From Gemmatimonadota bacterium (lineage in GTDB: Bacteria > Gemmatimonadota > Gemmatimonadetes > Longimicrobiales > Gaopeijiaceae), in NCBI GenBank assembly GCA_022823365.1, contig JAJDXG010000016.1, positions 62,001-126,000 of the forward strand: DNA of 64,000 nucleotides, written 5' to 3'. The translations under genes were made by a program, and so were the position numbers. Numbering within the stretch: position 1 is the stretch's first letter; each line of letters begins with the position of its first letter. The notes beneath the pieces were generated by a model that worked only from the letters and a program-made list of their open reading frames with translations, searched no databases and was not told the DNA's origin. This document shows, in pieces, positions 40,827-43,460 of the stretch.

Positions 40827-43460
40827 ATGAGGAGATTGGGGATGAGACACGCGACGACCACGCCGATGGCGGCGATGACGAGGAAGGGCGCGCTTGCGCT
40901 GACACTGCTCACGACCGCGCTGGCCTCGAGCGCGGCGGCAGCGCAGAACCGCCAGGACGACGCTGGCCTGCCCACCATCGAAGACAGAACCGCATCGATG
41001 GAGGCGATGGACGGCTTCCTGCCCATGTACTGGGACGACGCCGGCGGTCGGATCTGGCTGGAGATCGCGCAGTGGGACACCGACGTGCTGCATGCCTCCG
41101 GGATCGGGGCGGGCCTCGGCTCGAACGACATAGGCATCGACCGGGGGCAGCTGGCCGGCTCGCGCGTGGTGCGCTTCCATCGCGTGGGTCCCAAGGTGCT
41201 GATGATCCAGCCCAACTACCGCTTCCGCGCGTCCAGCGACAACGCCGCGGAACGGAAGGCGGTGGAGGACGCCTTCGCGCCTTCGACGCTATGGGGCTTC
41301 GACGCGGCCGCCCGGACCGGCGACCGCGTGCTGATCGACTTCACCCCATTCCTGCTGCAGGACATCGCCGGCTTCGCGGGGCGCCTGCGACCGGGCACCT
41401 ACCGGTTGGACCAGAGCCGGAGCGCGGTGTACCTGCCGATGACCATGAACTTCCCCGAGAACACCGAGATGGAGGCGTCGCTGACCTTCGTGCGCCAGGA
41501 CGGAGGGATGGCCGGCGGCCGCTTCGGAGGTGGAGGCGGTGGCGCCTTCGAGGGGGTCGGAAACGTCGCTGCCAACGCGGGCTCGGCTACGGTGCGCATG
41601 CACCATTCCTTCATCCAGCTGCCCGAGCTGGGCGAATACACGCCCCGCGCGCACGACTCCCGTTCCGGCTACGGCGGCATGTCCTTCCAGGACTACTCCG
41701 CGGCGCTGGACGAGCCCATGACCCGGCGCTTCATCCGCCGCCACCGCCTGGAGAAGCGCGATCCGACCGCACCCATGAGCGAGCCGGTGGAGCCCCTGGT
41801 CTACTACCTGGATCCCGGGACGCCGGAACCCGTCCGATCCGCGCTGCTGGACGGCGCGCGGTGGTGGAACCAGGCTTTCGAGGCGGCCGGCTTCATCGAC
41901 GCCTTCCGGGTCGAGATCCGGCCCGAAGACGTGAGCAGCCACGACGTGCGCTACAACGTCATCAACTGGGTCCACCGGTCGACGCGGGGCTGGAGCACGG
42001 GCGGCTCGATCACCGATCCGCGCACGGGCGAGATCCTCAAGGGGAACGTGACCCTGGGGTCGCTGAGGGTGCGCCAGGACTACATGATCGCCGAGGGGCT
42101 GCTGGCGCCCTACGAGAACGGGGACGAGGACGCGCAGGACATTTCGGAGTGGGCGCTGGCGCGCATCCGCCAGCTGTCGGCGCACGAGGTCGGGCACACG
42201 CTTGGGCTGGGGCACAACTACTAAGACAGCGATGTCGGGCGTATCTCGGTGCTCGACTATCCCCATCCGCTGATCACCTGGGACGGCAGCGAGTTCGACT
42301 ACTCGGAGGTCTACGACGTCGACATCGGCGAGTGGGACAAGGTCTCGATCCAGTATGGGTACTCGGTCTTCCCGCCGGGGGCCGACGAGGCGGCAGAACT
42401 GGACCGGATTCTGGACGAGGCGTGGGAGCAGGATATCCGCTACTTGACCGGCCAGGACGCCTCGGCGCACGCGCGGGTCGACCAGTGGTCGAACGGGACG
42501 GACGCCGGGGCCGAGCTCGACCGAATGCTCGACGTGCGGCGCGCGGCCATGGACCGCTTCGGCGAGCGTGTGATCCGCAAGGGCACGCCGATGGCGCAGA
42601 TGGAGGAGGTGCTGGTGCCCCTCTACATGCACCATCGCTACCAGGTGACCGCCGCCGCGTCCGTGTTGGGGGGCATGCACTACACCTACGCGACGCGGGG
42701 CGACGGACTGGAGCCGGTGCGGCCGGCCTCGGCAGATGAGCAGAAGCGGGCGCTCGACGCGCTGGTGCGGTCGTTGCAGCCGGCCGAACTGACCATCCCG
42801 GCCAAGGTTCTGGACGATTTGCCGCCCCGGCCCGCCGGCTACGGACGCACCCGCGAGCTCTTCCCGCGCTACACGGGGTCGATGTTCGACGCGGTGTCGC
42901 CGGCGGTGGTCGCGAGCGCCCACGTGGTGGGCGAGGTGCTGGAGCCCAGCCGGGCGGCGCGCCTGCTGGAACAGAACGCGCTCGACGGGTCGCTGCCGGG
43001 TCTTGGCGACGTAATCGGCGCGCTCACGGCGGTGGGCGACCCGAACGCGGCCGACTCGCCCTACGAGGCGGAGGTGCGCCGCGCCATCGGCCGGGTGGTC
43101 GCGGACGGGGTGATGAGCCTGGCCGGCGCGGCCGCCATGCCCCAGGTGAGGGCGGTCGCGGCCCAGCACCTTGGGTGGCTGGGGGACGCGGCCGAGGGCC
43201 GGTCGATGGGCGACGACCACAACGCCGCCCACTTCGCCCTGCTGGCACGAGACATCCGGCGCTTCGACGAGCGGCCCCACGAGCCATGGGCGCCACTGGT
43301 GACGCCCGATGCACCTCCCGGAGCCCCCATCGGCAGCGCGCCCATGGACTGGACCGGGTTCGGAACGGGGCTGGGGAGCACGCTCGCGGCCCGGGCGGGC
43401 CTTGTGGACCTCACCTGGCTGGACAAGCTGGTGCCGTTCTGCGCCTACGAGCAGTGGTGA
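40827..43460 (+). pseudogene. Zinc metalloprotease (DUF5117/DUF4953 type) interrupted by an in-frame TAA
   Basis: The start ATG at 40827 follows GGGGAGGA and opens a signal peptide ending near ASSAAAAQN. The frame runs through the zinc site H453-E-x-x-H457-x5-H463 to HNY and then meets TAA at 42222-42224. The same frame continues without shift for another 412 codons to 43460, and the downstream part carries the family segment [12 protein letters not shown]. The family usually has Met in this Met-turn-like position; here it is Leu476. One base substitution explains the break. Either the gene is decaying or the base is a sequencing error. A GTG at 42249 could start the second half, but it has no independent domain. 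Confidence 0.8.

Follow-up and report, generated by a model that had tools for sequence, protein, structure and literature searches.

The window, a 64,000-nucleotide stretch of a contig from a Gemmatimonadota genome, carries on its forward strand an 878-codon frame (40827 to 43460, terminal stop counted) that encodes a DUF5117 + DUF4953 ("Met-zincin") metalloprotease, as identified by Pfam profile matches in both halves. Exactly two stops occur in this frame, at codons 466 and 878, and the internal one is a TAA positioned two codons past the third His of the zinc motif. Our re-reading of the sequence confirms the original prediction with respect to the open frame from 40827 to 43460 with its single TAA at 42222 to 42224, the distance of this TAA from the third zinc-ligand His, and the absence of a frameshift in the frame. 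The features of the locus are as follows.

40814 to 40818, + strand: likely Shine-Dalgarno sequence GGAGG, 8 nt 5' of the ATG at 40827
41145 to 41756, + strand: DUF5117 domain (PF17148; Pfam E 9.2e-36)
42183 to 42215, + strand: zinc-binding motif HExxHxxGxxH, 11 residues, read from the sequence
42222 to 42224, + strand: in-frame TAA, codon 466; Tyr at this site in orthologous loci
42225 to 43460, + strand: distal half, open, with the remainder of the Met-zincin domain (PF16313; E 4.1e-46)
42252 to 42254, + strand: Leu codon at the Met-turn (SVLDYP), from the sequence and orthologue comparison

An open frame by itself is weak evidence for coding here because the DNA is GC-rich (69 to 71% in the gene region); over the same stretch, two further frames, one of them antisense, also contain just one stop each, the other being on the gene's own strand. 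We regard frame 40827 to 43460 as coding because of its Pfam homology and the codon-position pattern of its differences from the sister genome G009, which number 27, 17, and 129 at positions 1, 2, and 3, respectively. The start at 40827 is also backed by an alignment with seven genus-mates, in which no Met stands opposite the in-frame ATG at 40803. The N-terminus resembles a signal peptide when judged by eye, and a promoter and terminator scan found nothing. Elsewhere in the window, a TonB-type receptor-like frame (34760 to 37750, - strand) is overlapped on the opposite strand by a 1012-codon frame (34727 to 37765, + strand), and this overlap is probably an effect of high GC content.

The part of the protein before the stop scores 32.2 bits against PF16313 and the distal part scores 158.1 bits, both above the curated cut-off of 24.2; when the stop is read through, the score is 197.3 bits. 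As the first half also matches PF17148, the claim that translation past the TAA gives a full-length family member holds. The gene shares its domain order, its HExxHxxGxxH motif, and its whole-frame length with the PF16313 + PF17148 family, but differs in being split by one in-frame TAA. With respect to the hallmarks of the metzincin clan, the zinc motif HExxHxxGxxH is present and the Met of the Met-turn is replaced by Leu. Neither half matches an NCBIfam model. In the literature searched, no paper names DUF4953, PF16313, DUF5118, or PF17148, and DUF5117 was not named in the best 15 of 666 matches to a broader search. Two further full-length PF16313 genes, both free of internal stops, are retained in the same genome.

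Comparison with sister genomes had been proposed along with the original prediction, and we carried it out by using the half after the stop to search 11 genomes from the genus and 121 from the family. The site was read in every fetched locus with the motif, 51 in all, of which 39 form the orthologue group; 20 repeats of the same contigs, L011 (which begins past the site), and L065 (in which the motif was not found) were left out of the count. The equivalent of codon 466 is Tyr in all 38 other orthologous loci (36 TAC, 2 TAT), and TAA is found in the window gene alone. In the other 12 loci, which are paralogues or more distantly related, this position is Leu in eight, Ile in one, and Ala in three. 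Of the 10 other genomes in the genus, nine have a readable site, Tyr in every case, and G004 gave no match. The stop is private to the window gene, and a disabling lesion that is absent from relatives is what a pseudogene would display. As judged from these comparisons, the TAA is a single private nonsense change in an otherwise intact, conserved gene. The closest orthologues (L041, L042, L043, and L045) lie in records titled Gammaproteobacteria, beside Gemmatimonadetes and BD2-11 records, and these titles look wrong.

The finding that the distal half retains its frame and normal constraint would be expected if the TAA were decoded by readthrough or local recoding, with production of a full-length protease. 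A recoded stop should be conserved in relatives, but not one of the 38 other orthologous loci carries it. All 46 genomic tRNA matches were scanned with ARAGORN, and none has a TTA, CTA, or TCA anticodon, in a tRNA set that looks incomplete (Ile-GAT and Gly-GCC were not seen). The genome encodes both RF1 (PVT motif) and RF2 (SPF motif), motifs that we take to mark the two release factors, and the terminators of 92 conserved genes on the contig are TGA in 55 cases, TAG in 32, and TAA in 5. The RNA around the stop does not fold better than shuffled sequence (z = 0.45), and within 38000 to 48000 there is no Rfam match at the gathering score. These results leave the readthrough raised in the original prediction very improbable. 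Reassignment of the stop codon was considered separately and is rejected, as TAA ends 5 of the 92 genes, none of the 101 genes compared apart from the protease has a convincing internal stop, and RF1 and RF2 are both present.

To consider what the truncation would remove, we used an AlphaFold2 model of the intact orthologue L042, built from a 28-row alignment (mean pLDDT 60.6, falling below 50 at residues 466 to 502). With VIA-align, several known metzincins, including myroilysin, MMP-11, archaemetzincin, and PrtC, can be superposed on model residues ~307 to 520 with Z values of 6.8 to 7.7; a Z below 8 may reflect only a common arrangement, and the metzincins are outranked by many helical matches in the C-terminal part. 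The serralysin PrtC (PDB 1go8, an M226L mutant) shares the zinc motif and gives a low-confidence match to model residues 308 to 518 (Z 6.9, rmsd 4.4, 147 aligned). Foldseek gave no match to the model at E <= 0.001, and sequence searches of solved structures returned one weak, unrelated match each and no solved metzincin. The model hints that residues ~307 to 520 of the orthologue may be metzincin-like.

The stop corresponds to residue 471 of this model, a position ahead of the Met-turn within the metzincin-aligning domain. Translated up to the TAA, the protein would have 465 residues; its catalytic domain would break off just past the third zinc His, and it would be missing the Met-turn, the remaining part of the active-site domain, and the helical region at the C-terminus. 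Because the stop lies within that domain and ahead of the Met-turn, we infer that the truncated product should be inactive and probably degraded. A distal fragment, even if translation were re-initiated, would be without the N-terminal signal region. The programmed truncation suggested in the original prediction, or a split protein, would give the 465-residue fragment, or two separately translated halves, a role of its own. Retention of the zinc His residues and of the N-terminal signal region in the first fragment would suit such a role, as would an in-frame GTG at 42249 as a start for the second. This GTG, however, has no Shine-Dalgarno-like sequence 5' of it when inspected by eye, the distal half begins in mid-domain and without a signal region, and the cut falls within what the model presents as a metzincin-aligning domain. 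The 38 other orthologous loci have no stop here, and we find a functional fragment hardly credible.

If the gene had been inactive for some time, selection downstream of the lesion should be relaxed. Both dN/dS and the counts of private changes were computed without the stop codon and the first 80 columns of the alignment. The dN/dS between the window gene and its seven genus-mates is 0.046 to 0.082 before the stop and 0.086 to 0.128 after it, and the values among the genus-mates themselves are 0.022 to 0.067 and 0.056 to 0.160, respectively, with exclusion of the L004/L005 pair, which has no amino-acid change. Before the stop, the window gene reaches slightly above the range of its genus-mates. 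Private changes were compared with those of six genus-mates pooled (L004 was excluded as nearly identical to L005): amino-acid and silent changes stand at 3:6 in the window gene versus 14:68 in the pool before the stop (Fisher p 0.36), and at 3:8 versus 42:65 after it (Fisher p 0.53). Neither measure reveals relaxed selection downstream of the stop, and with these small numbers only strong relaxation is excluded. The relaxed selection expected after the lesion of a pseudogene was not observed; if the lesion were very young, no such signal would have arisen yet. As the gene exhibits neither decay nor relaxed selection, the change is either very young or not real. In the orthologous genes of L003 versus L004 and L005, synonymous divergence drops from ~0.27 to 0.29 before the stop site to ~0.04 after it, which suggests recombination within the gene.

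The absence of relaxed selection fits equally well with an error in the consensus base or a mixture of strains, in which case the living organism has a Tyr codon and a full-length protease. The same is true of the absence of the stop from every other orthologous locus read, and a single third-position change in a gene that is otherwise undamaged is all that an error would have to supply. C-to-A changes are a typical read artefact of oxidative damage, which counts toward an error. The source is a draft metagenome-assembled genome (3.8 Mb, 63 contigs, 98% complete), and its state as a draft points in the same direction; its sequence relatives place it near the BD2-11 Gemmatimonadota. Such lineages are often sponge-derived. 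A published study (PMC11017572) reports that internal stops in public assemblies of bacterial genomes are in many cases spurious, above all at low coverage and in a platform-dependent manner, which adds to the case for an error; like the nonsense pseudogenes and spurious stops in bacterial draft genomes treated there, the window gene has one stop with both flanks intact.

On the other side stands the quality of the contig. We compared 184 kb of it with the collinear contig of G009, and among 101 genes whose differences follow a coding pattern (48,184 aa), the protease is alone in having a convincing mid-gene stop. The remaining flagged stops are accounted for by 5' leaders upstream of the likely true start, by gene ends, by alignments in the wrong frame, and by one 167-codon reverse-strand frame that was judged spurious by eye; five translations were inspected, and the others were judged from their positions. 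In the reverse comparison (92 genes), stops were confined to two short frames (131 and 141 aa) and one wrong-frame piece. Three rows in which the frame changes from one genome to the other were inspected: two of the changes precede likely true starts, with one of these two frames also broken in G001 and G002, and the frame of the third is itself doubtful. An error-rich assembly was considered and not seen on this contig in the 101-gene comparison.

Control families were searched in 11 genomes. Peptidase_S9 gave at least 291 matches, and among those listed two were flagged, in G008 and G009, with a stop that looks by eye like a natural C-terminus. Plug gave at least 433 matches, and among those listed one was flagged, an internal TAG in G003. 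No stop was present in the Peptidase_S9 or Plug rows of the window genome among the matches listed, which also argues against a base error.

As the contig is clean, a real mutation is mildly favored. We consider it somewhat probable, at roughly 0.55, that the nonsense change is real and very young and represents a loss-of-function allele. One nonsense substitution would then have struck an otherwise intact, conserved metalloprotease gene very recently. A base error or strain mixture is a serious competitor, with a chance that we place below even. Among the four explanations offered in the original prediction, a young pseudogene and a base-call error each fit all of the findings, and programmed truncation and readthrough are unsupported. 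Most likely, the stop needs no new mechanism and reflects either recent gene loss or a sequencing error. By itself it matters little: a striking in-frame TAA beside a catalytic motif reduces to a private change or an error.

Single internal stops were also found in other PF16313 genes of the genus. Among 29 PF16313 rows above the cut-off, three have one, in three different paralogues from three genomes, with the window gene included; two of the 29 rows seem to be pieces of one gene, the excess rests on three events, and we claim no significance for it. The other two paralogues, L123 (G002:C101) and L137 (G003:C132), have one internal TAG each with open sequence on both sides. Across the family, among the matches listed, only the G002 row has a stop. 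This raises the possibility that the genus is losing its Met-zincin proteases one by one through fresh nonsense mutations, which we regard as doubtful. G003 is a fragmented draft of 500 contigs, and the title of one contig gives a coverage of 6.2. In this draft, which harbors L137, an internal TAG also occurs in L143 (G003:C378), a gene for a TonB receptor.

To be set beside stepwise loss is the finding that the same lineage tolerates repeated exchange of Met and Leu at the Met-turn. The original prediction correctly read Leu at this position in the window gene (42252 to 42254), but the residue is not unusual here, as Leu is the commoner of the two among orthologous loci. Because it is common to intact orthologues, this Leu is neither a lesion nor a sign of decay, and it is unrelated to the stop. 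In a published study (PMC1266349), the Met of the Met-turn is described as invariant in metzincins, and work cited there found that replacement by Leu had a minor effect in MMP-2 and compromised the kinetics of protease C. In PrtC (1go8) the Leu was introduced by the M226L mutation, whereas two thirds of the orthologous loci carry it naturally. Natural orthologues with Leu and with Met provide material for asking what the role of the Met-turn Met is, and may interest protease specialists more than the stop does. Of the 39 orthologous loci, 26 have Leu, including the window gene and 25 of the 38 others, and 13 have Met. On a quick tree of 51 rows, the residue has switched between Met and Leu at least eight times.
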